Part shown: in pieces, positions 14,778 through 61,557 of the stretch
How positions within the stretch are numbered: the stretch's first letter is position 1
Layout: every line of letters begins with the position of its first letter
Origin: Firmicutes bacterium FC7
GTDB taxonomy: Bacteria > Bacillota > Clostridia > Tissierellales > Tissierellaceae
Direction: 5' to 3'
Assembly (NCBI GenBank): GCA_022760735.1
Contig: JAKELU010000001.1
Location: 64,383 to 128,382 of the forward strand
DNA length: 64,000 nucleotides
The notes under the pieces: generated by a model
The model's database searches: none
What the model was told of the DNA's origin: nothing
Seen by the model: only the letters and a program-made list of their open reading frames with translations
Translations under genes and position numbers: made by a program

Positions 14778-15033
14778 GTTATCTCCTCCTAATACTATAG
14801 TTTTTTGAAGTTCCCGATGTAAAACGTTATCACTGTTACAAATAGAACACATTCGTACTATATAGTAGTATATCAAAATATTGACGATTTGGGAAGAAAA
14901 AAAGCGAATTTGATTTATTTTGTAATATTACGTAAAAAAATACACTTTATTCAAATAAATATTTTTATTAGATATATATTTATGATAGAATAAGTCATAA
15001 TAATTTTAGGATTAATTATATGTGAGGTGGAAT

Positions 15034-35147: not shown

Positions 35148-36398
35148 TTACTTACCTATATCATTCCTATAACATACTCCCTCAAATTTAACTTTTCCAA
35201 TGTTCTTATAGACCTCTTCTCTAGCCTTTGCTATATTTTCACCTAAACTTGTTATGGATAATACCCTACCTCCGTTTGTTAGTAGCTTATTATTTTCATA
35301 CCTTGAGCCATTGTGAAATACTATAATGGAATCGTCTAATTCTTCTAATCCACTTATTTCATAACCTTTCTTATATTCTCCAGGGTATCCTGATGAAGTT
35401 AGAACAACAGTTACACAAGACTTATCATCCCAAACCAAGTCCGTTTCAACTAAGGTACCATCTATAGTTTTTAGGAACACATCTACTATGTCAGATTTTA
35501 ACCTTGGAAGTACAACTTCAGTTTCAGGATCACCAAATCTTACGTTGAATTCTAGTACCTTTGGCTCACCTTTTACTATCATAAATCCTATAAACAAAAT
35601 GCCTTTAAAGTTTAATCCTTCATTTATAAATCCATTGATTATTTTATCTAAAACATCTTTTTTAATTTTATTATTCAATTCTTCAGTAAATAATGGGCTT
35701 GGTGAAAAGCAACCTACCCCTCCAGTATTTGGTCCTAAATCTCCATCATAGATTTTCTTATAATCCTTCGCACTTTCTAGAGGTATTATCTTGTTATCTG
35801 TTACAAAGCATAAAAGAGAAGCTTCCACTCCGTCTAAAAACTCTTCTAAGACAATTTTTCTGCCTTCATCACCAAAGATTTTATCAACTAATATTTTCTT
35901 AATTACATTCTTGGCTTCCTCTTCTGAATTACAGATTATAACTCCTTTGCCTAAGCATAATCCATCTGCCTTTATAACTAAAGGATAAGTAAAATTCTTA
36001 AGTTCACTTACTGCTACTTCATGATCTGTAAAACTTCTATATTTTGCAGTTGGCACTCCATACTTTTCCATAAATCTCTTTGAAAAATCTTTACTTCCCT
36101 CTAATTGTGCACACTGTTTATTTGGTCCAAAGATTTTTAGATTATTTTCCTCAAATTTATCTACTATGCCATGTACCAATGGATCTTCAGGGCCTACTAC
36201 AGTTAAATCTATATTATTATTAAGTGCAAATTCCAATAGCTTATCTATTTCATTAGGCTTTATATCTATATTCTCAGCAATTTCTCTTGTACCGCCATTC
36301 CCAGGGGCACAGTAGATTTTACTCACATTTTTAGATTGTTTTATCTTCCAACACAAAGCGTGTTCTCTTCCGCCACTTCCGATAACTAGGACTTTCAT
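35148..36398 (-). CDS. purD: Phosphoribosylamine-glycine ligase
   Basis: A 416-residue ATP-grasp enzyme that joins 5-phosphoribosylamine, glycine and ATP to GAR. Diagnostic parts are VLVIGSGGREHALCWK at the start, FGPNKQCAQLEGSKDFSKRF, YPLVIKADGLCLGKGV, GGVGCFSP and VLEFNVRFGDPETEVVLPR. AGGAGG precedes the ATG. It is the last gene of the purine operon, separated from purH by 185 bases that hold a palindromic element. Its substrate comes from PurF, which here has a degenerate glutaminase site. Confidence 0.97.
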   Translation of the reverse strand: MKVLVIGSGGREHALCWKIKQSKNVSKIYCAPGNGGTREIAENIDIKPNEIDKLLEFALNNNIDLTVVGPEDPLVHGIVDKFEENNLKIFGPNKQCAQLEGSKDFSKRFMEKYGVPTAKYRSFTDHEVAVSELKNFTYPLVIKADGLCLGKGVIICNSEEEAKNVIKKILVDKIFGDEGRKIVLEEFLDGVEASLLCFVTDNKIIPLESAKDYKKIYDGDLGPNTGGVGCFSPSPLFTEELNNKIKKDVLDKIINGFINEGLNFKGILFIGFMIVKGEPKVLEFNVRFGDPETEVVLPRLKSDIVDVFLKTIDGTLVETDLVWDDKSCVTVVLTSSGYPGEYKKGYEISGLEELDDSIIVFHNGSRYENNKLLTNGGRVLSITSLGENIAKAREEVYKNIGKVKFEGVCYRNDIGK

Positions 36399-36427
36399 CT
36401 TTTCCTCCTATTAATGTTAAATAATTA

Positions 36428-36514
36428 AATCCGAGATTCTTCACATTCGTTCTGAATGGCAATAAAGTCATCATTCAGAACTTCGTAGAGGTATCAATCT
36501 AGGGTTTTATAGAG
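36428..36514. repeat. Palindromic intergenic element between purH and purD
   Basis: A perfect ten-base core stem GTTCTGAATG/CATTCAGAAC (36449-36458 and 36472-36481) lies inside longer imperfect arms: AATCCGAGATTCTTCACATTCG on the left, and on the right the inverse of CCCTAGATTGATACCTCTACGAA. The phrase GAGATTCTTCAC-TTCG-TTCTGAATG resembles interspersed REP-like elements of Firmicutes. The rest to 36583 holds another small stem, GAAACC-N5-GGTTTC (36545-36561), ahead of the purH stop. Confidence 0.55.
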
Positions 36515-36583
36515 TGAACATTTGCAGACCGACTCTTCAAGTCCGAAACCGAACGGGTTTCTATTATAATAAGCCGGTGATAT

Positions 36584-38116
36584 TTAGTGTTTAAAATGTC
36601 TCATTCCAGTAAATATCATTGCTATACCATATTTATCTGCTGCTTCTATTACTTCATTGTCCTTTATTGATCCACCAGGTTGAATTACAGCCGTTACACC
36701 AGCTTTAGCCAATGCTTCAACAGAATCGCTAAATGGAAAGAATCCATCTGAAGCTGCAACACTATTTTTGATTTTGTCCTTACTTCTTTCTATTGCATTT
36801 TCTGTTGCCCAGAATCTATTAACTTCTCCAAGGCCGATTCCTATTGTAGCCTTATCTTTAGCAATTACAATACCATTTGATTTTATATTTTTAGCGGCCT
36901 TCCAAGCAAACATTAGGTCTTCCATCTCTTTTTCGTTAGGTTTTCTTTTAGTTACTACTTTAAAATCATCCATAAGTAGTTTTTCATTTCTATCCTGCAT
37001 TAAAAGTCCGCCTAGTACTTTTTTAATGTCCATAGCCTCATAATCATTTTTACCTATATTGTCTATTTGAATTAATCTTATATTTTTCTTTTGAGTTAAG
37101 ATTGATATTGCATCCTCAGTAAATGATGGTGCTAAGACAATCTCAATAAATATTTCATTTATCTTCTGTGCAACATCAGAGTCAATCTCTCTATTAGCTG
37201 CTATAATTCCACCAAATATTGATTCCTTATCACACTCATAAGCTTTTAAATATGCTTCCAATAGCGTTTGTCCACTTCCTATGCCACATGGATTAGTATG
37301 CTTTACAGCAACTATAGTAGGTTCTTCAAATTCCTTTAAAATTTCCAAAGCCCCATTTGCATCATTTATATTATTAAAGGATAGTTGCTTTCCATGTAGT
37401 TGTTTGCCTGATGATATAGAACCCGCAACTTCAAATACTTCCTCATAAAAGCTCGCTTCTTGATGTGGATTTTCTCCGTATCTTAGATCCTGTGAGCGCT
37501 TATAAGTTAGAGTCAATGTTTCAGGGAATTTAACTTTTGTAAATCTATTAAAATAATTAGCTATTAAGGCATCATAATAAGCTGTATAATTAAATACCTT
37601 ACAAGCCAAATACTCCTTTGTTTCAATACTTACTTCATTATTTTCTTTTAACTCCTCTAAGACTTTTTCATAGTCATCAGGATCAACTATAACAGTAACA
37701 AATTTGTAATTTTTTGCCGCTGCCCTAATCATAGAAGGTCCACCAATATCTATATTTTCAATTATATCCTCATGGGTTGAACTAGGATTTTTTATGGTCT
37801 CTTCAAAAGGATAAAGATTATTTACAACCATATCAATTGAATTAATATTTAATTCTTTTATAGTATTTACGTGCTCTTCTTCATCTCTTTTATATAATAA
37901 TCCACCATGTATATATGGATTTAGCGTCTTTACTCTTCCATCTAATATTTCGGGAAAATTTGTAACTTCCTCAATTTCAATGACATTTATTCCTTCTTCC
38001 TTTAATGCTCTTGCAGTTCCACCGGTAGAGATTATTTCCCATCCTAATTTAACTAATCCCTTTGCAAACTCTACAATTCCATCTTTTTTATATACACTAA
38101 TTAGTGCTCTTTTCAT
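36584..38116 (-). CDS. purH: Bifunctional AICAR formyltransferase / IMP cyclohydrolase
   Basis: A 510-residue two-domain enzyme. The N-terminal IMP cyclohydrolase (residues 1-~195) starts RALISVYKKDGIVEFAKGL and contains ISTGGTARALK and RVKTLNPYIHGG. The C-terminal AICAR transformylase has LRYGENPHQEASFY, VAVKHTNPCGIGSG, IGLGEVNRF and the end IFTGMRHFKH. It performs the last two steps to IMP using 10-formyl-THF. The gene begins ten bases after purN. All expected catalytic Lys-His-Asn blocks are present. Confidence 0.97.
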   Translation of the reverse strand: MKRALISVYKKDGIVEFAKGLVKLGWEIISTGGTARALKEEGINVIEIEEVTNFPEILDGRVKTLNPYIHGGLLYKRDEEEHVNTIKELNINSIDMVVNNLYPFEETIKNPSSTHEDIIENIDIGGPSMIRAAAKNYKFVTVIVDPDDYEKVLEELKENNEVSIETKEYLACKVFNYTAYYDALIANYFNRFTKVKFPETLTLTYKRSQDLRYGENPHQEASFYEEVFEVAGSISSGKQLHGKQLSFNNINDANGALEILKEFEEPTIVAVKHTNPCGIGSGQTLLEAYLKAYECDKESIFGGIIAANREIDSDVAQKINEIFIEIVLAPSFTEDAISILTQKKNIRLIQIDNIGKNDYEAMDIKKVLGGLLMQDRNEKLLMDDFKVVTKRKPNEKEMEDLMFAWKAAKNIKSNGIVIAKDKATIGIGLGEVNRFWATENAIERSKDKIKNSVAASDGFFPFSDSVEALAKAGVTAVIQPGGSIKDNEVIEAADKYGIAMIFTGMRHFKH

Positions 38117-38126
38117 TAAATCACTC

Positions 38127-38750
38127 CTATTTTGTTCTAACTATTCTTCCGTCTATAGTTAACCTATTGTCACAGTATAATTTAATAGCCTCAACTAAAA
38201 TACGATGTTCAACTTTTAATACTTTCTTTTGAAGTGTATCTGGCGTATCATCTTCAGCAACTTTAACAGCTTCTTGTATGATAATAGGTCCAGTATCTGT
38301 ATTTTCATCTACAAAATGTACTGTTGCACCGGTTATCTTACAGCCATATTCCAGAACTGCTTCGTGTACTCTTATTCCATAATAATTTTTCCCGCAAAAA
38401 CTAGGTATAAGGGAAGGGTGTATATTCATTATCCTCCCAGAATACTTATTTATAAATTCCTTAGAGAGTATCTTTAAATACCCTGCCAAAACAATTAAAT
38501 CTATATCTCTTTTCTTAAATTCATCTATTAACCTTCTATTAAATGATTCTTCATTTTCATAATCTTTAGGGTTTATATATATTGATTCTATTCCGGCTTT
38601 TTTCCCTCTTTCTAGACCATAGGCATTCTCTCTGTTGGAAATTATTAATTCAATACTTCCATTTATATTTCCTTCATTTATATTGTCAATAATGGACTGT
38701 AGGTTAGTACCTCCACCTGAAATTAGAACACCTATTTTTGTTTGTGACAT
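38127..38750 (-). CDS. purN: Phosphoribosylglycinamide formyltransferase
   Basis: A 207-residue folate-dependent GAR transformylase. It shows [30 protein letters not shown], the catalytic N-H-D region ([31 protein letters not shown]) and the normal length. It overlaps the end of purM by 19 bases, so translation is likely coupled. PurN uses 10-formyl-THF, the product of the Fhs enzyme elsewhere in the window. Confidence 0.96.
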
Positions 38751-39772
38751 AGAACAACACCCTTATTACCTTTTCTAATTTCTCCTAATACATAAAACTT
38801 CTCATGTCTTTCATTTAAATAGTTTTCTATATCCATTAGTTCATCTTTTGAAACAACTAGCACCATTCCAACGCCCATGTTAAATGTAGAATACATCTCG
38901 TCTATATTGATATTTCCCCATTGCTGCAATAGATTAAATATTGGAAGTGTATTAATCTTTGTACAATCTATATGTGCTGACAAGCCTTCAGGTAACATTC
39001 TTGGAATATTTTCATAAAATCCTCCACCTGTAATATGACTCAAGCCTTTTATTTTAAATTTCTCTATTAAATCATAAACAGGATCTACATAAATTCTTGT
39101 TGGCTTAAGTAATTCCTCACCAATAGTACAACCTAATTCTTCAAAATACTCATTTACATCAAGTTTTTCCTTTTCAAACACTAGCTTTCTAACTAGTGAA
39201 TAGCCATTACTGTGAATTCCATTAGAAGGTAAGCCTATGATAATATCTCCTTCTTCTATGGCTGATCCATCTATTATTTTTGACTTATCTACTACTCCTA
39301 CACAAAAACCAGCCATATCATATTCCTCTTCACTGTATAATCCTGGCATTTCCGCTGTTTCTCCACCAACTAATGGACATTTTGATTTAATGCATCCGTT
39401 GGAAACTCCTTCAACTATACTAGCCATTTTTTCAGGGACTAATTTCCCAGTAGCTATATAATCAAGGAAGAATAAAGGTTTTGCACCTTGGCACAAGATA
39501 TCATTTACGCACATAGCAACACAATCTTCACCAACGGTATTGTGTCTATCCATCATAAATGCGATTTTTAACTTTGTACCAACTCCGTCTGTACCTGATA
39601 CTAAAACTGGTTCCCTATATTTTGTAGTATCTAGTTGAAATAACCCTGCAAAACCTCCTATTTCAGATAACACTCCTGGCATATGGGTCTTTTTTACTAA
39701 ATTCTTAATAAGCTGTACTTCCTTGTATCCAGCCTCCTTGTCAACTCCTGAATCCTTATATGTTATAGACAT
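38732..39772 (-). CDS. purM: Phosphoribosylformylglycinamidine cyclo-ligase (AIR synthase)
   Basis: The ATG at 39772 with AAGGAGG seven bases upstream gives 346 residues; an earlier frame start at 39793 lies before that ribosome site. Typical blocks are [72 protein letters not shown] and [13 protein letters not shown]. The enzyme closes the imidazole ring of AIR with ATP. The spacer to purF (128 bases) holds a structured stretch. Confidence 0.97.
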
Positions 39773-39839
39773 GTATATCCTCCTTAAATTCAATTCAATC
39801 CTATTTAGTGAATTTCTTTAGTATTGTTAAGCAACTTTC

Positions 39840-39901
39840 GCGTCCCTAGGATTTGACCCCAGAGAGAATTGAAAGCTATTGGGGAGTAAACCCGAGATTC
39901 T
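39840..39901. repeat. Possible relic of the same palindromic element, between purF and purM
   Basis: The spacer reads CGTCCCTAGGATTTGACCCC, then a gap, then GGGGAGTAAACCCGAGATTCT. The CCCC/GGGG arms (about 39857-39860 and 39880-39883) can pair. Its right end AACCCGAGATTCT repeats the left end of the purH-purD element (AATCCGAGATTCT), and the inverted CCTAGGATTT recalls that element's other end. The match is short, so relation is tentative. It overlaps the last codons of purF. Confidence 0.35.
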
Positions 39902-41264
39902 ATTCACCATTAACTTTCTTTACGAATGGCTTAATAGCATAATCGCCAGTAAAGCATCCTTTACAAAATCCGTTATTCTCTCCTACTGATTTAACAAGTC
40001 CATCAATAGATAAATAGTATAGCGAATCAGCACCTATCATTTTTCTAATATCTTCTGTACTATAATTAGCAGCAATTAAATTTTCTCTACTAGGTGTATC
40101 CATTCCCAAATGACATGGATTTACCACCTGTGGAGATGCAATTCTAACATGAATCTCTTTTGCTCCTGCTTTTTTTAGCAAATCCACAGTTCTTTTTATT
40201 GTAGTACCTCTCACAATTGAATCATCTACTAAAATTACTCTTTTGCCTTCTATATTTTCCTTCACTGTATTTAACTTAATTCTTACTCCTTGCTCTCTCA
40301 AATCTTGACTTGGTTGTATGAAAGTTCTACCAACATATCTATTTTTAATTATTCCTTCTGCATAAGGAATCTTTGATTCTTCAGCAAATCCTATAGCAAA
40401 TACAATTCCTGAATCAGGAGCACCGATTACAACATCCCCATCATTTTCCGATTCCCTAGCAAGTTGTCTACCAGCCTCTTGCCTTGATAGATAAATACTT
40501 CTACCGTCCAATAAGCTATCAGGTCTAGCAAAATAAATTAACTCAAATAAGCAAAGGTTTCTTTTCTTAGGATTTCTATTTATCGTTCTTAATCCTTCAT
40601 TATCAATAACTACTACTTCTCCTGGCTCTATATCCCGTATAAACTCCGCACCTATTGTATCAAATGCGCAGGTTTCTGATGCTAATATATAATTATTATC
40701 TAATTTACCAAGGGATAATGGCTTTAAGCCAAAAGGATCCCTTGCGCCTATTAATCTATCATTTGTCATTAATACAAGGCCGTAGGTTCCTTCAACTTCG
40801 TTTAAGGTTTTTATTATGGCTTCTTCTAAATCACCCTTGTGATTTCTAGCTATTAAATTTGCTAATACCTCTCCATCTAGACTGGATTGAAAAATGATAC
40901 CTGCATCCTCTAGACTATCTTTAATTTTTTCCGAGTTAACTATTGTTCCATCTAGAGATAAAGCTAGAGCTCCTCTTTTATAGCCTGCTACTAAAGGTAG
41001 TGTATTAACTTGACTATGTTCATCATGGGAAGGGGCATATCTGACATGGCCTATACCTATATTGCCTCTTAGTCTTCCTATTTTTTCTTTAGAGAAGACT
41101 TCATGAACAAGTCCAAGCTCCTTAAAATAATCTATATATCCGTTGTTATTCACTGCAATACCTGAACTTACTTGGCCTCTATGTTGAAGTGCATAAAGAC
41201 CATAATATATAAGTTGAGATACATCATTTCGTTTAGAACTATATATTCCAATTATTCCACTCAA
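39900..41264 (-). CDS. purF: Amidophosphoribosyltransferase with a degenerate glutaminase site
   Basis: A 454-residue PurF; it starts at TTG 41264, seven bases after AGGAGGG. A frame stop just upstream leaves no room for a Cys-containing propeptide. The mature N-terminus would be Ser-Gly-Ile-Ile-Gly-Ile, so the N-terminal nucleophile Cys is replaced by Ser. Other glutaminase blocks are changed too: the usual HRGQESAG is HRGQVSSG, GHVRYSTTG is GHVRYAPSH, and the oxyanion-hole NG (residues ~105-106) is DG in LSLDGTI. The phosphoribosyltransferase half is intact (VILVDDSIVRGTT). The four Fe-S cluster cysteines remain (LCLFEL, NPCHLG, FCKGC). It is likely an NH3-dependent enzyme making phosphoribosylamine from PRPP. 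Confidence 0.94.
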   Translation of the reverse strand: MSGIIGIYSSKRNDVSQLIYYGLYALQHRGQVSSGIAVNNNGYIDYFKELGLVHEVFSKEKIGRLRGNIGIGHVRYAPSHDEHSQVNTLPLVAGYKRGALALSLDGTIVNSEKIKDSLEDAGIIFQSSLDGEVLANLIARNHKGDLEEAIIKTLNEVEGTYGLVLMTNDRLIGARDPFGLKPLSLGKLDNNYILASETCAFDTIGAEFIRDIEPGEVVVIDNEGLRTINRNPKKRNLCLFELIYFARPDSLLDGRSIYLSRQEAGRQLARESENDGDVVIGAPDSGIVFAIGFAEESKIPYAEGIIKNRYVGRTFIQPSQDLREQGVRIKLNTVKENIEGKRVILVDDSIVRGTTIKRTVDLLKKAGAKEIHVRIASPQVVNPCHLGMDTPSRENLIAANYSTEDIRKMIGADSLYYLSIDGLVKSVGENNGFCKGCFTGDYAIKPFVKKVNGE

Positions 41265-41276
41265 GGCTGAGCCCTC

Positions 41277-41756
41277 CTAACTATTTAGTTCTCTATCCAT
41301 TCTTATAACTTCTTCTTCCATTTCCTTCTTGTATTCTTTAAACTTCTCTCTTAAATCTGGATATTTTACTGATAATATTTGAACCGCTAATAGCCCAGCA
41401 TTTTCCCCACCATCGATGGCAACTGTTGCTACCGGAACTCCCTTTGGCATTTGAACTACTGATAATAGTGAATCAAGCCCGTCCATAGTGGAAGATTTAG
41501 CAGGAATTCCTATTACAGGGAGCGGTGTTATACCAGCAATAACACCTGCTAAGTGAGCCGCCTTTCCTGCAATAGCTACGATCACTTCAATACCATTTGA
41601 TTCAGCATTTTCTGCAAACTCAGCAGCTATATGTGGACTTCTATGAGCTGAGATAACTCTTGTTTCATAATCTACTCCGAATTTTCCTAAAACTTTTATA
41701 ACCTTATTTCCAATTTCTCTATCTGAAATACTTCCCATTACTATACTAACCTTCAT
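41277..41756 (-). CDS. purE: N5-carboxyaminoimidazole ribonucleotide mutase
   Basis: The ATG at 41756 is eight bases after AGGAG, giving 159 residues. It has SIVMGSISDREI (the usual GSxSD motif), VISAHRSP with the catalytic His, AGKAAHLAGVIAG, PVIGIP and the end VQMPKGVPVATVAIDGG. That makes it a class I PurE. No purK is present in the window, as in many anaerobes whose high CO2 may allow direct carboxylation, or because purK is elsewhere. The gene lies between purL and purF, separated by a dozen bases or fewer. Confidence 0.96.
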   Translation of the reverse strand: MKVSIVMGSISDREIGNKVIKVLGKFGVDYETRVISAHRSPHIAAEFAENAESNGIEVIVAIAGKAAHLAGVIAGITPLPVIGIPAKSSTMDGLDSLLSVVQMPKGVPVATVAIDGGENAGLLAVQILSVKYPDLREKFKEYKKEMEEEVIRMDRELNS

Positions 41757-41767
41757 CACATTCACTC

Positions 41768-44700
41768 CTAAACAAAGTATTTTACCCCTGATTCAAATAT
41801 CTTGTGTCTTCCTTTTATTTTTACGTTCTTATAGACTCCTTCTCCCATTCTATCTATGGAGGTTATAGTACCTAGAATTCTTCCATCTTTACTTGTGAAT
41901 GATTCAACGGCCATATCTGAACCAGTAGGATTAGTTGAAACAAATTGAGTTACAAGCTGACCATTGATTAATAGTTCATCTGCACTATTGCCTAGTAGAA
42001 TTCTACCTTCTTTAGTAGCTATTGGAACAGTATATACTTCACCTACTTCCATTTCATTCATCCAAGGTGATAAATTAGACACTACCTTTACATCCACCAT
42101 TGTAGAGATGAATTTACCGTCAATATTATTCGTAATATATGGTGATTGCAATAAACCAGCTTTTATTAATCCAAGTGCACCTTCTCCAATTCCTAGGATA
42201 AGTCCATCTCTATTTTCTAGAAGCTCATCAAGTGATTCCTTAATATAAGGGTTGTTAAAGATAATGTTTAATAGCTTTCCACCAGCTTCTGGCTCATCAC
42301 CGTAGATTTGGCCATGAGGTAATCCAAGGATTTGAGAATTCTTTATTTTTTCTGCTAAAATCTTGTATGACTCTTCAATATTATCCTTAGTTAATGATTT
42401 GAAAACATAGGTTTCTACTTCTGCACCAGCTTTTTCAAAGGATCTAGCCATATCATATTCACCATGAGTTCCAGTAAAAATTGGAATGATTACTTTTGGC
42501 TTAACTATTGCTCTTTGCTTCTTAATGATAGTTCCCTTTGTATATGGTCTAATTTCTGTTTGCTCAAAAGCTTTTCTATCAGTAGGGAATACCTCTTTCA
42601 ATGGTTCTTCCCATTGAACTAACAATTCATCAAGTCCTATAATTTCATCCTTTATCTCTATTTGCTCTTTTGCTATTGTTCTACCAATTAAGGAATAATC
42701 TATTCCCTCAAATATTTCTTCAATATTTTCTCTATTGCTTATTTCCAATATGATAGAGCCATAAAGAGGTTTATAGAGTTTGTCTACTATGCTTTCTTCA
42801 ATTTCACAACCTATTTTATTACCTAATGTCATTTCAGCTATACTCTTTGCTATTCCTCCAAATGTAATACTTGAGCTTGCTAGAACTTTCTTTTTATCTA
42901 TTAATTCATTTATCCTTATATAATTCTTCTTTAATTGCTCAAAGTTCACTAAACCATTGTCATCTATGTGTAAATTAACCATTACGATATTTGACCCTAC
43001 TTCTTTAAATTCCTTTGAAACAATGTTGTCAACTTTATCATAACTTACTGCAAAGCTTAATAATGAAGGTGGCACATTTACACTTCCAAAGCTACCACTC
43101 ATACTATCTTTTCCACCAATGCTTGGAATATCTAAGTTCTTTTGAACTAAAAATGCTCCTAAAAGGCTTGCAAATGGCTTACCCCATTTAGTTGGATTAT
43201 CTCCTAATCTCTCAAAATACTCTTGGAATGTAAGTCTAACTTTTCTATAATCTCCACCTAAAGCTACAATTTTCGCAATAGATTCAATAACTGCATAGTA
43301 TCCGCCATGGAATGTACTCCACTTAGCTAATTTAGGGTCATATCCATAGGTCATCATAGAGCAGGTAGTTGTTTCTCCTTCTGGAACTGGAATTTTTGCT
43401 ACCATACCTTCCTGTGGAGTTACCATTTCTTTACCACCTAATTGCATCAATACAGTACCTGAACCAATTGTATTATCAAATCTTTCAACTAAGCCTTTTT
43501 GTGAGGCAACATTTAATTCTTTTATATTTTCTATGAATGCTTCTTTAAGTCCCTTATTCTGTACATGACATGGATCGTTTATTAAATACATTTCATCATT
43601 TGGCATGGCTATATTTACTTTAGCCTTTTTTCTTATTCCATTTGTATTTAGGAATTCTCTATCTATATCGATTATCATTTTTCCTTGCCATACCATTTGA
43701 AGTCTATTTGTATCTGTAACCTGAGCAATTACAGTCGCCTCTAAATCCTCTGCCTTTACAAGGCTCATGAACTCGTCTAAATTTTCTTTATCGATAACTA
43801 CTGCCATTCTCTCCTGGGATTCAGATAGTGCAATTTCAGCTCCATCAAGTCCTTCATATTTTAGAGGTACTTTATTTAAATCGATATATAAGCTATCTGC
43901 CAACTCTCCCACTGCAACTGCTACTCCACCAGCTCCAAAGTCATTACATTTCTTAATAAGCTTTGTTGCATTTGGGTTTCTAAACAGTCTTACTATCTTT
44001 CTCTCTAGAACTGGATTTCCTTTTTGTACTTCTGCTCCTGATTTTTCAAGGGATTTCTCTGTTTGTACTTTTGAAGAACCAACAGCAGCACCTAGACCGT
44101 CTCTTCCAGTTCTCCCACCAACAAGAAGTATTAAATCTGTAGGTTCTGATTTGCCTCTTACAACCCAATCCTTAGGAGCAGCTGCAACTAGAGCACCTAA
44201 TTCCATTCTCTTTGCGACAAAACCTTCATCATAGAATTCCTTTATATAGCCTGAAGTAGCTCCGATTTGATTGCCGTATGAGCTATATCCTTCCATAGCT
44301 GTTTGAGTTATTTTTCTTTGAGGTAATTTCCCTTTTAATGTATCTTCAAATTTTTGGCGTGGGTCAGCTGCACCTGTAATTCTCATAGCTTGATATACAT
44401 ATGCTCTACCAGATAGAGGATCTCTGATTCCACCACCTAAACAAGTAGCTGCTCCTCCAAAAGGCTCCATTTCAGTTGGATGATTGTGAGTTTCATTTTT
44501 AAACATTAATAGATATTTTTCATTTTTACCATTTACATCAACGTCAATTACAATACTAGCCGCATTAACCTCATCTGTTTCTTCCTTATCATCAAGCAAG
44601 CCCTTTTTCTTTATTTCCTTCATGTTTATAGTAGCTAAATCCATTAAAGATGTAGCTCTCTCTTTGTCTTCGTAAACATATTTCTTTGATTTCAAGTATT

Positions 44701-45451
44701 CCTTTATGGCTTCTTCGAATATTTCTTTATATTTCCCATCTTCGATTTGAATGTCTGTTATTTCTGTCATGAATGTAGTATGTCTACAATGGTCTGACCA
44801 ATAAGTATCTATTACTCTGAGTTCTGCTATGCTTGGATCTCTATTCTCAGACTTGAAGTATGATTGACAGAATAATAGGTCTTCCATATCCATTCCAAGA
44901 CCTTTTTGATTTTTTAAATCCATAACTTCATATTCAGACATATTTATAAATCCGCTTATGATTTCTACATCCTTTGCTGCTTCATCTATAGTGCTATCAT
45001 CAACGTAATCTAGATCAATTTCTCTATACTCTATAGGGTTGATATAATAGGTCTTAATTTTTTCAAATTCTTCATCACTTACATTACTTAATACAATTAT
45101 TTTGGAGTGTTTTACTTCTATATCATCAAAGTTTAAAAATTTCTTTATAATCTCATTTGTTGAATCTTCTCTTTGATTAAACTGTCCCTTGTGTGCTTCA
45201 AATCTAAATGCCTTTTCATTTTCTCCTAATGTTAGAACTGTATATAGCAAATCTGTATATGGTTCATATAGTACCTTTTCTATAATTTTCTTTGTTTCAT
45301 TTTCATTTGCATTCTTTATATCATATACGTTTATTACTCTGACTTTTTCTAAGTTGGAGATACCTAAATAATTTTTAAAATCATCTAAATAATTTTTAGC
45401 TTCAACATTAAACAATTCTTTTTTTTCTATAAAAACTCTTGTATTCTCCAT
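41768..45451 (-). CDS. purL: Single-chain FGAM synthase (clade II PurL) with a dead-looking glutaminase domain
   Basis: A 1227-residue PurL-PurQ-like fusion of the clostridial/streptococcal clade II type. The synthetase half is intact: YWSDHCRHTTF, FKNETHNHPTEMEPFGGAAT, GIRDPLSGRA, FGAGGVAVAVGELAD and SIGGKDSMSGSF. The C-terminal GATase domain (about residues 985-1170) keeps its overall shape but not its catalysis. The usual PGTNCEYD is TGTHGEYD. The nucleophile motif GICNGFQ is GIGEGAL (Cys replaced by Gly1089). The catalytic His-x-Glu segment SHGEG is ATKEG (His replaced by Thr1146, Glu kept). It should still make FGAM from FGAR and ATP using ammonia. Its leader holds a ykkC-type riboswitch and terminator. 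Confidence 0.94.
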   Translation of the reverse strand: MENTRVFIEKKELFNVEAKNYLDDFKNYLGISNLEKVRVINVYDIKNANENETKKIIEKVLYEPYTDLLYTVLTLGENEKAFRFEAHKGQFNQREDSTNEIIKKFLNFDDIEVKHSKIIVLSNVSDEEFEKIKTYYINPIEYREIDLDYVDDSTIDEAAKDVEIISGFINMSEYEVMDLKNQKGLGMDMEDLLFCQSYFKSENRDPSIAELRVIDTYWSDHCRHTTFMTEITDIQIEDGKYKEIFEEAIKEYLKSKKYVYEDKERATSLMDLATINMKEIKKKGLLDDKEETDEVNAASIVIDVDVNGKNEKYLLMFKNETHNHPTEMEPFGGAATCLGGGIRDPLSGRAYVYQAMRITGAADPRQKFEDTLKGKLPQRKITQTAMEGYSSYGNQIGATSGYIKEFYDEGFVAKRMELGALVAAAPKDWVVRGKSEPTDLILLVGGRTGRDGLGAAVGSSKVQTEKSLEKSGAEVQKGNPVLERKIVRLFRNPNATKLIKKCNDFGAGGVAVAVGELADSLYIDLNKVPLKYEGLDGAEIALSESQERMAVVIDKENLDEFMSLVKAEDLEATVIAQVTDTNRLQMVWQGKMIIDIDREFLNTNGIRKKAKVNIAMPNDEMYLINDPCHVQNKGLKEAFIENIKELNVASQKGLVERFDNTIGSGTVLMQLGGKEMVTPQEGMVAKIPVPEGETTTCSMMTYGYDPKLAKWSTFHGGYYAVIESIAKIVALGGDYRKVRLTFQEYFERLGDNPTKWGKPFASLLGAFLVQKNLDIPSIGGKDSMSGSFGSVNVPPSLLSFAVSYDKVDNIVSKEFKEVGSNIVMVNLHIDDNGLVNFEQLKKNYIRINELIDKKKVLASSSITFGGIAKSIAEMTLGNKIGCEIEESIVDKLYKPLYGSIILEISNRENIEEIFEGIDYSLIGRTIAKEQIEIKDEIIGLDELLVQWEEPLKEVFPTDRKAFEQTEIRPYTKGTIIKKQRAIVKPKVIIPIFTGTHGEYDMARSFEKAGAEVETYVFKSLTKDNIEESYKILAEKIKNSQILGLPHGQIYGDEPEAGGKLLNIIFNNPYIKESLDELLENRDGLILGIGEGALGLIKAGLLQSPYITNNIDGKFISTMVDVKVVSNLSPWMNEMEVGEVYTVPIATKEGRILLGNSADELLINGQLVTQFVSTNPTGSDMAVESFTSKDGRILGTITSIDRMGEGVYKNVKIKGRHKIFESGVKYFV

Positions 45452-45460
45452 TTTATCCTC

Positions 45461-45512
45461 CTTAATTTTAAAACCCAGGCGGGTAGGTAAAAGAACCTAC
45501 CCGCCTGGGTTT
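45461..45512 (-). terminator. Riboswitch-linked terminator in the purL leader
   Basis: A perfect 18-base stem (45471-45488 and 45495-45512, core CCCAGGCGGGTAGG) with a six-base loop. On the minus strand it is followed by TTTTAAAA and then the purL ribosome site. Its upstream arm joins the 3' end of the aptamer, as in ykkC-family expression platforms. Confidence 0.85.
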
Positions 45513-45618
45513 TTCTCCCTTCGGTGTAATACTAAAATAGTATCTGTACCGCTTGGACCAGCAAGCTTTATGCTTCGGAACCCTAGGTACACTTCCATCC
45601 CAACCTTATTATGGGATT
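45513..45618 (-). promoter_or_regulatory. ykkC-family riboswitch (probably PRPP-sensing) before purL
   Basis: On the minus strand the leader contains GTGTACCTAGGGTTCCG, then GCTGGTCCAAGCGGTACA, then TTACACCGAAGGGAGAAAA. CTAGGGTTCCG and GCTGGTCC with closing pairs GTGT/ACAC and GTACC/GGTAC are ykkC hallmarks. An extra 5' hairpin ATCCCA/TGGGAT precedes it. Guanidine-I, ppGpp and PRPP subtypes share this core; the purine context points to PRPP (subtype 2b), which turns purine genes on when PRPP is plentiful. Subtype by eye is not certain. Confidence 0.8.
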
Positions 45619-45633
45619 TTTCCAAGTATCTTA

Positions 45634-46317
45634 TTAATCTAACATTATTCTTTCTAGCTGCAGTGGTTCAATATATGAACCGTCTTTATATGCTCTCATA
45701 TTTCCTCCAGATATTTCATCTATAAGAGCTATGTGGTTATCTTCCCCCACTCTTCCAAATTCAAATTTTATATCATAAAGCTCCAAGCCTTTTTTACTAA
45801 GTTCTTCTTTAACTATACTTCCAATTTTCTTTGTAAGGTCAACTAGTGTATTGTATTCTTCCTTTGTCATTATGCCTAGCATTTCTAAAGCTTCATCAGT
45901 AATCAATGGGTCATTTCTCTCATCGTCCTTTAACGTTACTTCAACATATGCGTCTAATTTTTGACCCTCTTTTGCATACAATCCATATCTTCTTAAAAAA
46001 CTACCAACTGCCCTATAACGACAAATTACTTCTACTCCTTTTCCAAACATCTTAGCAGGCAATACTGTCATTGTTGCATTTTCTATATCTGAACTAACAT
46101 AATGCGTTGGAATATCTAGGTCATTTAGCTTTTCAAAAAAGTATTTAGTTAATTTTAAACCTGATTTACCAATACCTTCTATACTTAACCCAACAGTATT
46201 TGCTCCTGGATCAAATACTCCATTCTCACCAGTAACATCATCTTTAAACTTAAGTAGAAAATTCCCATCTTCTAATGCATATACATTCTTAGTTTTGCCT
46301 GTGTACACTAATTTCAT
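45634..46317 (-). CDS. purC: SAICAR synthase
   Basis: A 227-residue enzyme that couples CAIR, aspartate and ATP. It has the start KLVYTGKTKNVYALEDGNFL, the P-loop-like FKDDVTGENG, CRYRAVGSFLRRYG, DPLITDEALEMLGIM, and DIKFEFGR followed by LIDEISGGNMR. It is the first gene of the purine operon, with AAAGGAG upstream and its own ykkC-type leader. A second riboswitch separates it from purL. Confidence 0.97.
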   Translation of the reverse strand: MKLVYTGKTKNVYALEDGNFLLKFKDDVTGENGVFDPGANTVGLSIEGIGKSGLKLTKYFFEKLNDLDIPTHYVSSDIENATMTVLPAKMFGKGVEVICRYRAVGSFLRRYGLYAKEGQKLDAYVEVTLKDDERNDPLITDEALEMLGIMTKEEYNTLVDLTKKIGSIVKEELSKKGLELYDIKFEFGRVGEDNHIALIDEISGGNMRAYKDGSYIEPLQLERIMLD

Positions 46318-51593: not shown

Positions 51594-53234
51594 TTAATTT
51601 CGCTTAACTTCCCTTAACTTCCTTGCAATATCAAAATATTCTCTCTCTAACTCTAACTTCTCTTCATCCTTTGCATTGGTTAACTTAAAGGATAAATCTG
51701 CTAGTTTCATCTCTAGCATCAATATATCTGCTTTATATTCATGATTATCCTGTGTTTTTATCATGTAATAATCATAATCTCCTAGATATACATTTAATTT
51801 TTTATCCTTTAGCACCCAGATTTCGTTAGCAATATTCTTAACCAAATATCTATCATGGGTTACAAATAGTATGGAATTGTTGTAGTCCATAATTGCTTCT
51901 TCAATAAGTTCTTTAGTAGGTATGTCTAAGAAGTTTGTAGGTTCATCTAAGATTAACATATTGTATTCCTGGACTAATAATTTAGCTAAAGCTACTCTTA
52001 CCTTTTCACCATAGGACAGTTGTTTAAACTTCTTATAGACATCACCTTCTCTTATCATCAGTTGACCTAAGGTATTGCGTATTAGTGATAAATCATCTGT
52101 AACCTTTTGCATTTCTTCTATTACTGTATTTTCAAACTCAAAACCTTCAAATTCCTGTGATAGATATCCAATCTTTGTAGATGAGTTAATTCTAATACTT
52201 CCCTCATATTCAGTTCTGCCAAGAATTATATTAATAAGGGTTGATTTTCCTGTTCCATTATCACCTAAAAGAGCTATCTTTCTTCCCTTATTAACTTGAA
52301 AGTTAATATTCTTAAACAGCAGTCTATCAAAAGACTTTGATATATTTTCTCCACTAATTAAAATAGATGATGTTGTCTCAGCTTCATCAAATTCAATATA
52401 TACTTCCTTTTCTATAAAAGGCTTATCTACTTCCTGCATTTTTTCCAAACGCTTTAAAATAGATTTTGATCTTTTAGCAAGCTTTTTGTTTCTTCCTCTT
52501 AAATAATCATTTTTAGATGTGGCATTTAGTTTATTTGCCTTATCCATAATTCCTTGAGCTGCTTGTTTTAGTGCCTTTTCCTTCTTTTTATACTTAATAT
52601 ACTCAATTCTTTCTCTTTCTTCTTCTTTCTCCTTCTGTTCTTTATAGCTTGAATAATTGCCTTTATATCTTTTTATTTTACCTTTGTCTATTTCTAATAT
52701 CTCTTCTACTACATTATCTAAGAATACCCTATCGTGGCTAATAGTTAGTATAGCCCCATTGTATGACTTCAAATACTTTTCGAATATCTCTATGGTCTTC
52801 CAGTCTAAAAAGTTAGTAGGTTCATCCAATAGCAATAATTGTGGTTCATCAATTAAAGCTTTAACAAATAGTAACTTAGTTTTTTCTCCACCACTAAGAA
52901 GAGATATATCTTTATTCTTAAGCTTTTCTAAATCAAGGTCATGAATTAATTTTCTAATTTCTTTGCTTATTTGATTGTTATCAATTATTTTGGCCAGGCT
53001 TATGTTTTCTGCCTCATTAGCCTGTGGCAAATAACCTATCTTACACTTTATATCAGAGAATCCACTATCTGCTGGAACTTCTCCCAAAATAATCTTCATT
53101 AGTGTTGTTTTCCCACAGCCATTTCTGCCTACTATACCGATTCTTTCATTATCATTTACTGAAAAACTAATATCCTTTAAAATTTCTTTGTTTAAATAAG
53201 TTTTACTTATATTTGAAACGTTTAATTTTAGCAA
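51594..53234 (-). CDS. ABC-F family ATPase, probable ribosome-protection type
   Basis: About 546 residues with two ATPase domains and no membrane segment. The first has GIVGRNGCGKTT, LSGGEKTKLLF and LLLLDEPTNFLDW; the second ALLGDNGTGKST, LSYGEKVRVAL and LILDEPTNFLD. A charged interdomain linker (about residues 185-265) would reach the ribosomal peptidyl-transferase centre. ABC-F proteins of this size include antibiotic-resistance factors that displace lincosamides, streptogramins A or pleuromutilins. The leader peptide and hairpin upstream favour such an inducible role. The ATG at 53240 abuts the AGGAGG, so the TTG at 53234, seven bases away, is the likelier start. Confidence 0.88.
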   Translation of the reverse strand: MLKLNVSNISKTYLNKEILKDISFSVNDNERIGIVGRNGCGKTTLMKIILGEVPADSGFSDIKCKIGYLPQANEAENISLAKIIDNNQISKEIRKLIHDLDLEKLKNKDISLLSGGEKTKLLFVKALIDEPQLLLLDEPTNFLDWKTIEIFEKYLKSYNGAILTISHDRVFLDNVVEEILEIDKGKIKRYKGNYSSYKEQKEKEEERERIEYIKYKKKEKALKQAAQGIMDKANKLNATSKNDYLRGRNKKLAKRSKSILKRLEKMQEVDKPFIEKEVYIEFDEAETTSSILISGENISKSFDRLLFKNINFQVNKGRKIALLGDNGTGKSTLINIILGRTEYEGSIRINSSTKIGYLSQEFEGFEFENTVIEEMQKVTDDLSLIRNTLGQLMIREGDVYKKFKQLSYGEKVRVALAKLLVQEYNMLILDEPTNFLDIPTKELIEEAIMDYNNSILFVTHDRYLVKNIANEIWVLKDKKLNVYLGDYDYYMIKTQDNHEYKADILMLEMKLADLSFKLTNAKDEEKLELEREYFDIARKLREVKRN

Positions 53235-53249
53235 GTTCATTCCTCCTAT

Positions 53250-56105: not shown

Positions 56106-56160
56106 AAAGAGATTATTAACCACACTACACTTGTGGCTAATAATCTCTTTTCTATTTTTA
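56106..56160 (+). terminator. Terminator in the AOR leader
   Basis: Perfect 13-base arms AAAGAGATTATTA (56106-56118 and 56138-56150) with an inner CCACA/TGTGG stem, then TTTCTATTTTTA. It ends 25 bases before the ferredoxin start, so it is either the terminator of the MoaD-like gene or the switch of a riboswitch. Confidence 0.85.
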
Positions 56161-56184
56161 AAATATAAAAGGGGGTTGATTAAA

Positions 56185-56664
56185 TTGGCAAAAGGTATAG
56201 TTATTTCTCCGGACAAATGCACAGGTTGTCATACCTGCGAACTTGCTTGCTCATTTACAAAAAATGACCTATTTAATCCAAAGGATTCTGCTATTTCAGT
56301 TCTATCATATGATGAAGCAGGATTGCAAGTTCCAATGACATGTCTACAATGCGACGATCCTCATTGTATGACAGTTTGCACCGTAAATGCAATTACAAAG
56401 GATCCAAAAACAGGTGTTGTAAAAGTTGATAAAGACAAGTGTATAGGCTGCAAAATGTGCATAAGTGCTTGTCCTTTTGGCAATATGACCTACAGCTCAA
56501 GATTAAAGCAAGTTATAAAATGCGATTTATGTAGTGGTACTCCTCAATGCGTTAAAGAATGTCCTTCGGCAGCTTTAGAGTTTAAGGAATTAGATGGACC
56601 ATTGCATAAGAGAAAGAATATTGCCAACCTGTTTAACAATGTATTTGGGGAGGTGGCTAAATAA
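56185..56664 (+). CDS. Ferredoxin-type subunit with four [4Fe-4S] clusters, AOR partner
   Basis: The start is TTG at 56185, nine bases after GGGGG, giving 159 residues; upstream in-frame codons lie inside the terminator. Four cysteine groups are present: [35 protein letters not shown] and [14 protein letters not shown]. The layout is that of HycB/DmsB-like electron-transfer subunits and of the small subunit of multi-subunit tungsten AOR complexes. It overlaps the aor start codon by one base (AATGA), so both are coupled. It likely wires AOR to the NuoE/F/G-like subunits encoded downstream. Confidence 0.9.
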
Positions 56665-58487
56665 TGAAGGGCTGGATTGGTAAACTTATAAGAGTTAACT
56701 TAACGGAAAAAACAATAAAAGTAGAAGACTTAAATATGGAAGATGCAAAGTTATATCTAGGTGGTAGAGGATTAGGCTCTAAATATCTATATGATGAAAT
56801 TGATCCTACAATAGATCCACTAAGTCCTGAAAATAAGCTAATATTCATGACAGGTCCATTAACTGGAACTTACGCTACCTGCGCAGGTAGATTCAATGTA
56901 GTTGCAAAAGCTCCATTGACCGGTACAATAGGAGCCTCTAACTCTGGAGGATACTTTGGTCCTGAGTTAAAATTTGCTGGATATGATGGAATTATTTTTG
57001 AAGGAAAAGCTGATAAACCAGTATATTTGCATATTTATGATGATATTATTGAATTAAAATCTGCTGAACACTTATGGGGCAAGGACGTATTTGAAACCAC
57101 TGATACTCTTCTTCTAGAAAATGAAGAAGATGCAAGAGTTGCCTGCATAGGTCCTGCTGGTGAAAAACAGGTATTATTTGCAACTGTAATGAACGATAAG
57201 GATAGAGCAGCAGGCAGATCTGGTCTAGGGGCAGTAATGGGCTCAAAAAACCTTAAGGCAGTTGTTGTTAGAGGGACTAAAGGCATAGGTGTAAGTGATA
57301 AGTTTGATTTTATGAGTGCAACAAAAGATGCCAAGGAAAAAATATATGCCAATGCAGTTACCGGAAAAGGTGGAGGACTTGCTTCTTATGGAACTGAAGT
57401 ATTAGTCAATATCCTAAATGAAATGCACGGATTGCCTACAAGAAACTGGCAAACTTCATACTTTGAAGGTGGCGAATTGATAAGTGGTGAGTATTTAGCT
57501 GAAAATTACTTAATAAGAAATAAGGCTTGCTTTGCATGTCCTATAGGATGTGGAAGAGTAATAAAAATTCCAGATGGAAAGTACAAAGGAATAGTTGCAG
57601 GTCCTGAATATGAAGCTGGATGGTCCTATGGTGCTTGTTGCGGTGTTGATGACTTAAATGCCATCAATAAAGCAAACCACGTATGTAATTTACTAGGCCT
57701 TGACCCTATTACTATGGGCGCAACTATTGCTTGTGCAATGGAATTATTTGAAATAGGAGCAATCTCCAAGGAAGACCTTGGTGACGAATTAAGATTTGGT
57801 GATGGAGACTCAATTATTAAATGGACTGAAAAAACTGGTAATAGAGAAGGCTTCGGAGACTTACTAGCCCTTGGCTCCTATAGATTAGCAGAAAAATACG
57901 GCCATCCTGAGCTATCCATGAGCGTTAAAAAACAGGAAATGCCAGCTTATGATGGTAGAGCAATTCAAGGTATGGCATTAGAATATGCTACAAGCAACCG
58001 TGGTGGTTGCCATGTTAGAGGTTATCTAACATCACCTGAAGTACTTGGTATTCCTATGAAAACAGACCCATTGACTACAGAAGGCAAAGCTGGATTGTTG
58101 AAATTGTTCCAAGACTTAACGGCTTTAGTTGATTCCTCAGACATCTGTCTATTCTCGACCTTTGCTATAGGTCTTCCAGAAATATCAAGTATGCTAAGAG
58201 CTTCTACTGGCCTTGAATTAACAGATGAAGAGTTCCTACTAGTTGGAGAAAGAATTTGGAATCTTGAAAAACTATTTAATTTAGAAGCTGGCTTCACTAA
58301 GGAAGATGACACTCTTCCACCAAGGCTACTAAATGAGCCACTTACTACAGGCCCTGCAAAGGGTAAAGTTGCCGAACTTGAAGTAATGCTAGAGGAATAT
58401 TATGAAGTAAGAGGATGGGACAAAGAAGGAATCCCAACTGATGAAAAATTAAACGAACTTTCATTATCGGCTAAGGCCTTAGCTTAA
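56664..58487 (+). CDS. Tungsten-containing aldehyde:ferredoxin oxidoreductase
   Basis: A 607-residue AOR. Typical parts are [28 protein letters not shown], pterin-binding [20 protein letters not shown] (residues ~65-84), [19 protein letters not shown], and the [4Fe-4S] motif CFACPIGC near residue 290 with a later Cys in SSDICLF. AORs oxidise aldehydes to acids with a bis-pterin tungsten site, or reduce acids in reverse, using ferredoxin. In amino-acid fermenters aldehydes arise from 2-keto acids. The gene is flanked by its ferredoxin subunit and NAD(P)H-linking subunits. Confidence 0.95.
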
Positions 58488-58496
58488 TAAATACTT

Positions 58497-58533
58497 AGAA
58501 CATCCATTGTTAGTACAATGGATGTTCTTATAA
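58497..58533 (+). terminator. Hairpin inside the AOR operon, between aor and the NuoE-like gene
   Basis: Perfect 14-base arms AGAACATCCATTGT (58497-58510 and 58515-58528) with a four-base loop, followed by TATAAATT. The weak T run suggests partial termination or an mRNA-stability barrier that sets subunit ratios. Confidence 0.65.
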
Positions 58534-58549
58534 ATTAGAAGGTGATAAT

Positions 58550-59008
58550 ATGAATCTTGAACTTATTCACAAATATCCTAGAGAAAAGCGATTTACTCTT
58601 TCGATTTTACAGGATATTCAAAGAGAATATAACTATATTCCAAGAGAATATATGGAGTATATTGCAGAATATTTAAATCAACCTTTAAGTGACGTATATA
58701 GCATAGCAACTTTTTATAAAGCATTGAGTTTAAAACCTAAGGGCAAATATACAATAAAAGTATGTAATGGAACTGCATGTCACATTAGAGGCTCTGAATC
58801 TATTAGGGAAGAACTACTTAAAGTTCTTAATTTAGAACCTGGCGAAACAACTGAGGACGGCTTGTTTTCCGTTGAAGTAGTTAACTGTATTGGAGCATGT
58901 GCACTAGCACCTGTAATTTTAATAAACGATAAATATTATGGTGGCATGACTAAGGAAAAAGTTAAGGACTTAATTAATAGCTACAGGGAGGTGGCTATTA
59001 ATGCATGA
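58550..59008 (+). CDS. NuoE-like [2Fe-2S] subunit (thioredoxin-like)
   Basis: A 152-residue NuoE/HydC-type protein. The N-terminal helical part (PREKRFTLSILQDIQREYNY, then IPREYMEYIAEYL) precedes a thioredoxin-like domain with the four cluster cysteines in CNGTACHIRGS and VVNCIGACALAP. It works with the NuoF-like subunit, overlapping it by eight bases. In hydrogenases, formate dehydrogenases and AOR complexes this module shuttles electrons to or from NAD(P)H. Confidence 0.93.
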   Translation: MNLELIHKYPREKRFTLSILQDIQREYNYIPREYMEYIAEYLNQPLSDVYSIATFYKALSLKPKGKYTIKVCNGTACHIRGSESIREELLKVLNLEPGETTEDGLFSVEVVNCIGACALAPVILINDKYYGGMTKEKVKDLINSYREVAINA

Positions 59009-60821: not shown

Positions 60822-61557
60822 GATAGATGGCAAAACTTATAAAGGACACCCTGGAGAAACTCTTATGGAAGTGGCCAGAAGAAATGGAATAAATATACCA
60901 AGTCTATGTTATAAAAAAGGTTTCGAAGGCCTTGGTAGATGCAGATTATGTCTTGTTGAAGTAAGTGAAGGTAAAAGAAGCAAAATTGTATCGGCTTGTG
61001 TTTACCCTATTAAGGAAGGTATAGAGGTTACAACAATTACCGATGAAATAATAAAAATGAGAAAAGATATTATTCTGCTATTGTTATTACGAGCTCCAGA
61101 TAACGAATATATACAACAATTAGTTAAGGAATATGAAGTAAAGGCTCCTGAAAGGTATATTCAAAATGACAATGACGATTGCATCCTATGTGGTTTGTGT
61201 GTAAAGGCATGTGAAAAACTGGGAACTAAAGCTATTTCATTAGTAAATAGAGGCATTACTAAAAAGGTTTCTACTCCTTATGATGATCCATCTAAAGATT
61301 GTATAGGATGTGGAGCCTGTGCAGAAACTTGTCCTACGAATGCAATTAAGTTAGAAGAAAGCAATGGAATTAGGACCATATGGAACAGGGACTTTGATTT
61401 AGTTAAATGTTCAATATGTGGTAAGTATTATACTACTTTGGATGCACTAAAATTTATTGAAGATAAGTTAGCATCAAATGAAGAACATATCTGTGATACA
61501 TGTAAAAAGAAATCAACAGCTTCAAAATTTAAGGAATCCTTCCAACACATTTATTAA
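60811..61557 (+). CDS. NuoG-N-terminus-like iron-sulfur subunit without a catalytic domain
   Basis: The ATG at 60811 with GGAGG eight bases upstream gives 248 residues, overlapping the NuoF-like gene by 11 bases. The plant-type [2Fe-2S] domain has CYKKGFEGLGRCRLC and ACVYP; two [4Fe-4S] clusters follow (CILCGLCVKACE, CIGCGACAETCP). The C-terminus has CSICG and CDTCKKK, a possible zinc or rubredoxin-like ribbon. The protein stops where FeFe hydrogenase H-cluster or molybdopterin domains normally begin, so it is an electron-transfer subunit only, joining AOR and the NuoEF-like unit. Confidence 0.9.
   Translation: MLIKIDGKTYKGHPGETLMEVARRNGINIPSLCYKKGFEGLGRCRLCLVEVSEGKRSKIVSACVYPIKEGIEVTTITDEIIKMRKDIILLLLLRAPDNEYIQQLVKEYEVKAPERYIQNDNDDCILCGLCVKACEKLGTKAISLVNRGITKKVSTPYDDPSKDCIGCGACAETCPTNAIKLEESNGIRTIWNRDFDLVKCSICGKYYTTLDALKFIEDKLASNEEHICDTCKKKSTASKFKESFQHIY

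Follow-up and report, generated by a model that had tools for sequence, protein, structure and literature searches.

Purine genes of the window

The window is a stretch of 64,000 nucleotides from the genome of Firmicutes bacterium FC7. It carries a run of purine genes on the minus strand and a guaA gene on the plus strand. Within the run, purC, purL, purE, purF and purM were assigned by NCBIfam profiles; the remaining three genes we take, from their translations, to be purN, purH and purD. The features are as follows:

35148-46317, minus strand: purine run purC-purL-purE-purF-purM-purN-purH-purD
41768-45451, minus strand: purL, single-chain FGAM synthase of 1227 aa (TIGR01857, 1517.6 bits; cut-off 1057.05)
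41774-42502, minus strand: GATase_5 domain of PurL, residues 984-1226, full length, catalytic residues gone (PF13507, 140.2 bits)
42185-42187, minus strand: codon of Gly1089, nucleophile Cys column of PurL (alignment to active relatives)
42014-42016, minus strand: codon of Thr1146, catalytic His column of PurL (same alignment)
42008-42010, minus strand: codon of Glu1148, retained triad Glu of PurL (same alignment)
39900-41264, minus strand: purF, 454 aa, Ser for the N-terminal Cys and Asp105 for the HNG Asn (TIGR01134, 478.6 bits; cut-off 350)
15022-16260, plus strand: guaA, up to 412 aa, GATase stub and complete ATPPase (TIGR00884, 492.3 bits)

PurC (45634-46317, minus strand) reached 110.7 bits, below the TIGR00081 cut-off of 189.9. 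Elsewhere in the window, an ABC-F protein (51594-53240, minus strand) scored above the general ribosomal protection-like cut-off and below those set for the listed, named resistance families, and 56131-61557 (plus strand) encodes an aldehyde ferredoxin oxidoreductase, presumably of the tungsten type, with 4Fe-4S, NuoF-like and 2Fe-2S partner genes.

Catalytic residues of PurL, PurF and GuaA

PurL matches its profile over the whole chain (positions 2-1239 of 1239). The initial annotation had described a glutaminase domain without Cys and His at 41990-42510. A domain does lie there; however, it extends to 41774, so that this span misses about 70 final residues. The motifs TGTHGEYD, GIGEGAL and ATKEG were read in the translation as described. 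The Cys of GICNGFQ is the decisive one, whereas the Cys of PGTNCEYD occurs in only 78% of the 63 active sequences. Alignment places Gly1089 at the nucleophile and Thr1146 at the His; from the triad of class I glutamine amidotransferases PurL thus retains the Glu. A displaced Cys-His pair, which would have spoken for an active domain, found no support: a search of the domain sequence revealed no cysteine, and among 45 Cys-less PurL sequences there was no conserved replacement Cys column (18 of 45 in the best one). The search for a catalytic Cys elsewhere in the domain thus found none. Chance or sequencing error was ruled out for Gly1089, since the position is Gly in 43 and Ser in two of the 108 PurL sequences. 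It is confirmed that PurL of the window has lost its catalytic residues and kept a complete domain.

The corresponding change in PurF was absent from the initial annotation. Translation of purF starts at a TTG codon preceded by GGAGGG and followed by AGT, which puts Ser at the place of the N-terminal Cys of active PurF. Alignments assign this mature N-terminal Ser2 to codon 41261-41259 and Asp105 to codon 40952-40950; PurF of the window hence has neither the N-terminal Cys nor the HNG Asn. In GuaA, the GATase stub covers positions 1-54 of a 188-position profile and reaches 61.5 bits with TIGR00888 (cut-off 172.15). The complete GATase domain of a glutamine-hydrolysing GMP synthase is therefore missing. 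The ATPPase part of this GuaA matches family f4 at up to 76%, as compared to about 62% for most genomes of its own family, which suggests that the gene was gained from elsewhere and later trimmed.

The genome (2.5 Mb, 99.34% complete) was searched for other amidotransferases. PF13507 matched one protein, namely PurL of the window. PF00117 matched three: a CTP synthase that has both Cys and His, a protein that we take to be peptidase-C26-like and that has its Cys, and the GuaA stub. PF13522 matched PurF and GlmS, the latter retaining its Cys; no PurF other than the Cys-less one was found. This genome yielded neither a second PurL or PurQ nor a free GuaA glutaminase. It also yielded no carbamoyl-phosphate synthase large chain above cut-off, and this enzyme therefore dropped out of the comparison. 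The three purine amidotransferases have thus lost catalytic glutaminase residues, while CTP synthase and GlmS appear intact. As no glutaminase was found for the purine steps, ammonia is the most plausible nitrogen donor there, judged from the genome sequence.

Distribution among relatives

A sample of 120 genomes of the order, including that of the window, contained a PurL match in 114. The C-terminal part was read in 108 sequences from 107 genomes; G007, G033, G049, G060, G073, G092 and G095, with matches that were partial, broken or split over genes, were left out. Cys, His and Glu were present in 63 sequences, and 45 had no Cys (43 Gly, two Ser). His was also lost in 42 of these 45 and Glu in one, yet all 45 retain 239-263 residues of the glutaminase domain. 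GuaA in the same rows had no domain in 17 cases, a truncated one in six, a Cys-less full-length one in 13 and an intact one in six; in three it was not found. The contrast drawn in the initial annotation, a domain retained in PurL and cut out in GuaA, thus extends to the relatives.

On a FastTree tree of the synthetase part (106 rows, without G028 and G094, whose sequences were too short), Cys loss corresponds to three changes, namely in a clade of 40, in G081 (f13) and in G058 with G116 (f19). Addition of named genomes, again in a FastTree tree (177 rows, 60 without Cys), gave a fourth outside the order, which comprises two Halanaerobiales MAGs (L239, L243) and a Clostridiaceae MAG (L257). 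Among the named carriers of a Cys-less PurL are Tissierella praeacuta, T. simiarum, T. creatinophila and [Clostridium] ultunense. The excerpted text of PMC5924567, the genome paper of C. ultunense, describes this species as abundant in biogas processes with high ammonia and as having no gene for a high-affinity glutamine synthetase.

PurF was compared in 113 sequences, which come from 111 of the 112 genomes where a match was found. Cys with Asn was found in 58, Ser with Asp in 42 and Cys with Asp in ten; the other three had Cys/Ser, Gly/Asn or ended before the Cys. Ser with Asn was never seen, all 42 Ser forms having Asp. PurF was scored as lost if either residue was changed, a rule on which the assignment of 11 sequences with Cys and a changed Asn, including that of C. 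ultunense, depends. Six f4 genomes (G047, G096, G105, G108, G111, G114) combine Ser/Asp PurF with an active-type PurL. GuaA was classified in 112 genomes, mostly by score and length, as intact in 64 (above the TIGR00888 cut-off) and lost in 48. Lost forms were full-length in 13 (122-163.5 bits; Gly for Cys in 12, broken motif in G061), truncated in nine (411-437 aa) and without the domain in 26 (312-338 aa; G058, G104 and G116 were read individually).

In 99 genomes all three enzymes could be scored jointly: none was lost in 41, all three in 34 and some in 24. A rule by which all three are always lost together was rejected because of these 24 mixed relatives; three Halanaerobiales MAGs with Cys-less PurL and with Cys and Asn in PurF also speak against it. 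Restriction to purine enzymes was rejected as a general rule as well. PyrG (CTP synthase) of T. creatinophila (L306) reads GISLGMQ, with Ser for the catalytic Cys, the only such case among nine PyrG read, and CarA, the small chain of carbamoyl-phosphate synthase (L301), in the genome of the digester MAG AS06rmzACSIP_356 (L257) reads GIGLGHQ and QYYPE, with Cys and His lost.

Selection on the domain and structure model

Among 39 dead PurL sequences (741 pairs), the glutaminase domain diverges more than the synthetase part in every bin (e.g. 0.466 versus 0.313), whereas both diverge about equally among 63 active ones (1953 pairs; 0.317 versus 0.321). The dN/dS of the domain, for which a comparison over domains had been proposed, was 0.04-0.20 in 17 close dead pairs and 0.02-0.14 in 13 close active pairs, and that of the synthetase part was 0.06-0.14 in the same 17 dead pairs; many of the dS values are high. 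Two dead pairs of genus g10 showed no acceleration of the domain (dN ratios of 0.45 for G018/G024 and 0.81), and three active pairs had ratios of 1.47-2.24 (G039/G065, 2.24). Constraint on the dead domain is relaxed yet still strong. The fold is kept by purifying selection, which supports this part of the earlier interpretation, a fold that outlives its catalysis.

Conservation was counted at 90% in 42 dead and 63 active sequences. In the domain, 45 positions are conserved in dead and active forms alike; another 42, the catalytic loops included, are conserved in active forms only, and 15 in dead forms only. Position 1150, two residues after the triad Glu, is occupied by Arg in 37 of the 45 dead forms and by Lys in the other eight. 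We take R1150 for the putative counterpart of Arg1263 of Salmonella PurL, which, according to the part of PMC3815217 at hand, binds a loop of the synthetase where ammonia exits.

PurL residues 28-1227 were modelled from 30 sequences, with a pLDDT of 82.3 and a pTM of 0.88. Ten-residue blocks of the glutaminase domain lie at 82-96, with one of 64; the synthetase stretches at about 291-400 and 421-450, in model numbering, are of low confidence (35-67). The comparison with Salmonella PurL that had been suggested gave Z scores of 29-32 across some 1060 residues, and PurQ of Thermotoga maritima (3d54_D) matched the modelled domain with Z 27.2 and an rmsd of 1.9 over 211 residues. The model supports a large-PurL fold that includes the glutaminase domain; it bears on the fold and not on a tunnel. 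A model of the domain alone (10 sequences; pLDDT 57.4) was too poor for use.

Glutamine synthetase and correction for relatedness

PF00120 was matched in 73 of the 120 genomes; the 47 without a match were partly derived by subtraction. Type I was assigned to 42 genomes, type III only to ten, and 21 had only a form of 634-650 aa; types were set by score and length, with one type III checked individually. Two of the 21 long forms were scored, and both fell below the GlnA cut-off. The genome of the window has this class only. Its 634-aa protein (L436:2270-4171), with a predicted glutamine synthetase catalytic domain, reached 127.6 bits against the GlnA cut-off of 429.15; presence of this glutamine-synthetase-like protein counts against assuming a lack of glutamine there.

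A missing PF00120 match was found with lost versus kept PurL in 32 of 44 versus 10 of 63 genomes (Fisher P = 5e-9), with PurF in 40 of 53 versus 3 of 58 (P = 3e-15) and with GuaA in 33 of 48 versus 11 of 64 (P = 5e-8), kinship being ignored in all three tests. If PurF was counted as lost only when the Cys was not seen, the figures were 29 of 42 versus 14 of 69 (P = 7e-7, kinship likewise ignored). Furthermore, independent pairs were compared on an rpoB tree of 90 genomes (those of the first 30 loci and 60 fetched; 107 of the 120 had an rpoB match). Mean numbers of pairs in the same/opposite direction were 2.5/0.0 for PurL-PurF, 3.0/0.0 for PurL-GuaA and 1.5/0.0 for PurF-GuaA; with glutamine synthetase they were 0.9/0.1 for PurL, 1.9/0.5 for PurF and 1.5/0.0 for GuaA. 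On these pairs, neither co-loss of the three glutaminases nor loss versus glutamine synthetase was significant, a level of 0.05 being out of reach with fewer than six informative pairs. That glutaminase losses go with a missing glutamine synthetase is hence a lead, not a result, and draft genomes may miss genes.

Transfer and order of losses

In each of two f18 genomes, G057 and G068, a single PurL and a single PurF were matched, and both proteins are dead. Their PurL joins genus g11 of f1 in the PurL tree (support 99). The rpoB tree places them with G044 and G076 (support 100), in which PurL and PurF are active. The simplest reading of these trees is that an active pur operon was replaced by a dead one. 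In genus g12, active copies stand beside dead ones (PurL and GuaA in G014, PurF in G020 and G025). Family f13 forms a series: G053 and G074 lack active PurF and glutamine synthetase, G039 and G065 also GuaA, and G081 also PurL. As to the order in time, we infer that PurF and glutamine synthetase were lost first, GuaA next and PurL last. Tentatively, and with slightly more doubt than conviction, we suggest that loss of glutamine synthetase or high ammonia may have led repeatedly and stepwise, in the order of f13, to an ammonia-only pathway, that ammonia-only pur genes may be transferable, and that some lineages, as in genus g12, may return by gaining active enzymes.

Discussion

Textbooks give glutamine as the nitrogen donor for the reactions of PurF, PurL and GuaA. 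We consider it quite probable that PurL of the window is an FGAM synthase with a long-dead, structural glutaminase half, in a host that makes purines from ammonia only and whose ecology is one of high ammonia. The enzyme would be working, its glutaminase half having lost catalysis long ago, and the synthetase half most likely uses free cytoplasmic ammonia. We propose that the dead domain was kept because it is an integral part of the one-chain fold and packs against the synthetase. The initial annotation had suggested a structural role as well, of which closure of the ammonia tunnel would be one putative example. GuaA, with its separable glutaminase module, would have shed most of this domain. 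Since PurF is changed alike and the GuaA module was shed, the host probably makes its purines from ammonia alone. This may be affordable for amino-acid fermenters and for bacteria of high-ammonia digesters, many of which have no glutamine synthetase. Our best reading is that PurL and PurF keep a structural remnant where GuaA sheds its domain. The dead PurL/PurF pair of G057 and G068, without active copies, speaks for this explanation; the 24 mixed relatives among 99 and the non-significant co-loss on independent pairs speak against it.

Published work on related enzymes is in agreement, as far as the excerpts of these sources go. Most such amidotransferases are able to use exogenous ammonia (PMC10526850), and an E. 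coli PurF whose Cys was replaced by Ser used ammonia, with no detectable use of glutamine in the part of PMC3261824 consulted. Glutaminase and synthetase domains of Salmonella PurL share a common interface and probably unfold together (PMC3815217), which would account for retention of the PurL domain. In some organisms the GuaA glutaminase forms a subunit of its own (PMC10526850), which would account for its dispensability.

Among the alternatives, it is unlikely that the dead PurL domain is a sensor which controls the synthetase half by still binding glutamine or some other metabolite. Purifying selection on the domain and the 15 positions conserved in dead forms only would fit such a role, but the residues conserved around the nucleophile, oxyanion loop and His of active forms are lost, and at 14 of the 15 dead-only positions the residue is that of the active majority, which gives no pointer to a new site. 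Ser-type Ntn hydrolases exist, and the Ser of PurF directly follows the start codon; PurF might hence be a slow glutaminase and the pathway only partly dependent on ammonia. We regard this as very improbable, because the HNG Asn is replaced by Asp in each of the 42 Ser forms and the Ser form of E. coli PurF showed no detectable glutamine use in the text seen of PMC3261824. Slightly less credible still is the supply of ammonia in trans by another glutaminase docking on PurL, PurF or GuaA: a docking surface could persist, as position 1150 on the interface side is Arg or Lys in every dead form, but the profile searches of the genome yielded no candidate beyond PurL itself, CTP synthase, the C26-like protein and the GuaA stub, and the place of a partner is still occupied by the dead domain. 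Three enzymes without their conserved catalytic residues might suggest decay of unused purine genes; this can practically be dismissed in view of the full-length open frames, the low synthetase dN/dS of the 17 dead pairs and the apparent transfer of a dead operon.

The ammonia-dependent reading may be compared with known systems. Large PurL of Salmonella (1T3T and mutants) shares domain order and fold with PurL of the window, which scores above the TIGR01857 cut-off; unlike it, the window protein has neither glutaminase Cys nor His, and identity to the Salmonella structures is about 18%. Archaeal PurF' is likewise a PurF-like protein without the N-terminal catalytic Cys, proposed in the excerpt of PMC3261824 to be an ammonia-dependent PRPP aminotransferase; there it accompanies a normal PurF, whereas here the Cys-less PurF stands alone, with dead PurL and GuaA. 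Single-domain NAD synthetase also amidates with ammonia where relatives use glutamine, but it is described in the accessible part of PMC3376133 as having no glutaminase domain and as ancestral. Here, in contrast, the domain would once have been active and then either died and been kept (PurL, PurF) or been shed (GuaA). Two-subunit GMP synthetase, as outlined in the extract of PMC10526850, has a free-standing ATPPase like the 312-338 aa GuaA of the relatives; unlike in that system, no separate GuaAa was found in the genome of the window and a stub of the domain remains. A description of such an ammonia-only purine clade was not found in titles and abstracts, most subscription journals lying outside the literature search.

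A clade seemingly without glutamine at three steps represents a natural experiment on the glutaminase domain and the ammonia tunnel, in which dead-but-kept (PurL, PurF) and shed (GuaA) cases occur side by side. It would also mean that automatic annotation misnames these proteins, which score as glutamine-dependent enzymes, and it would have a bearing on nitrogen flow in ammonia-rich digesters.
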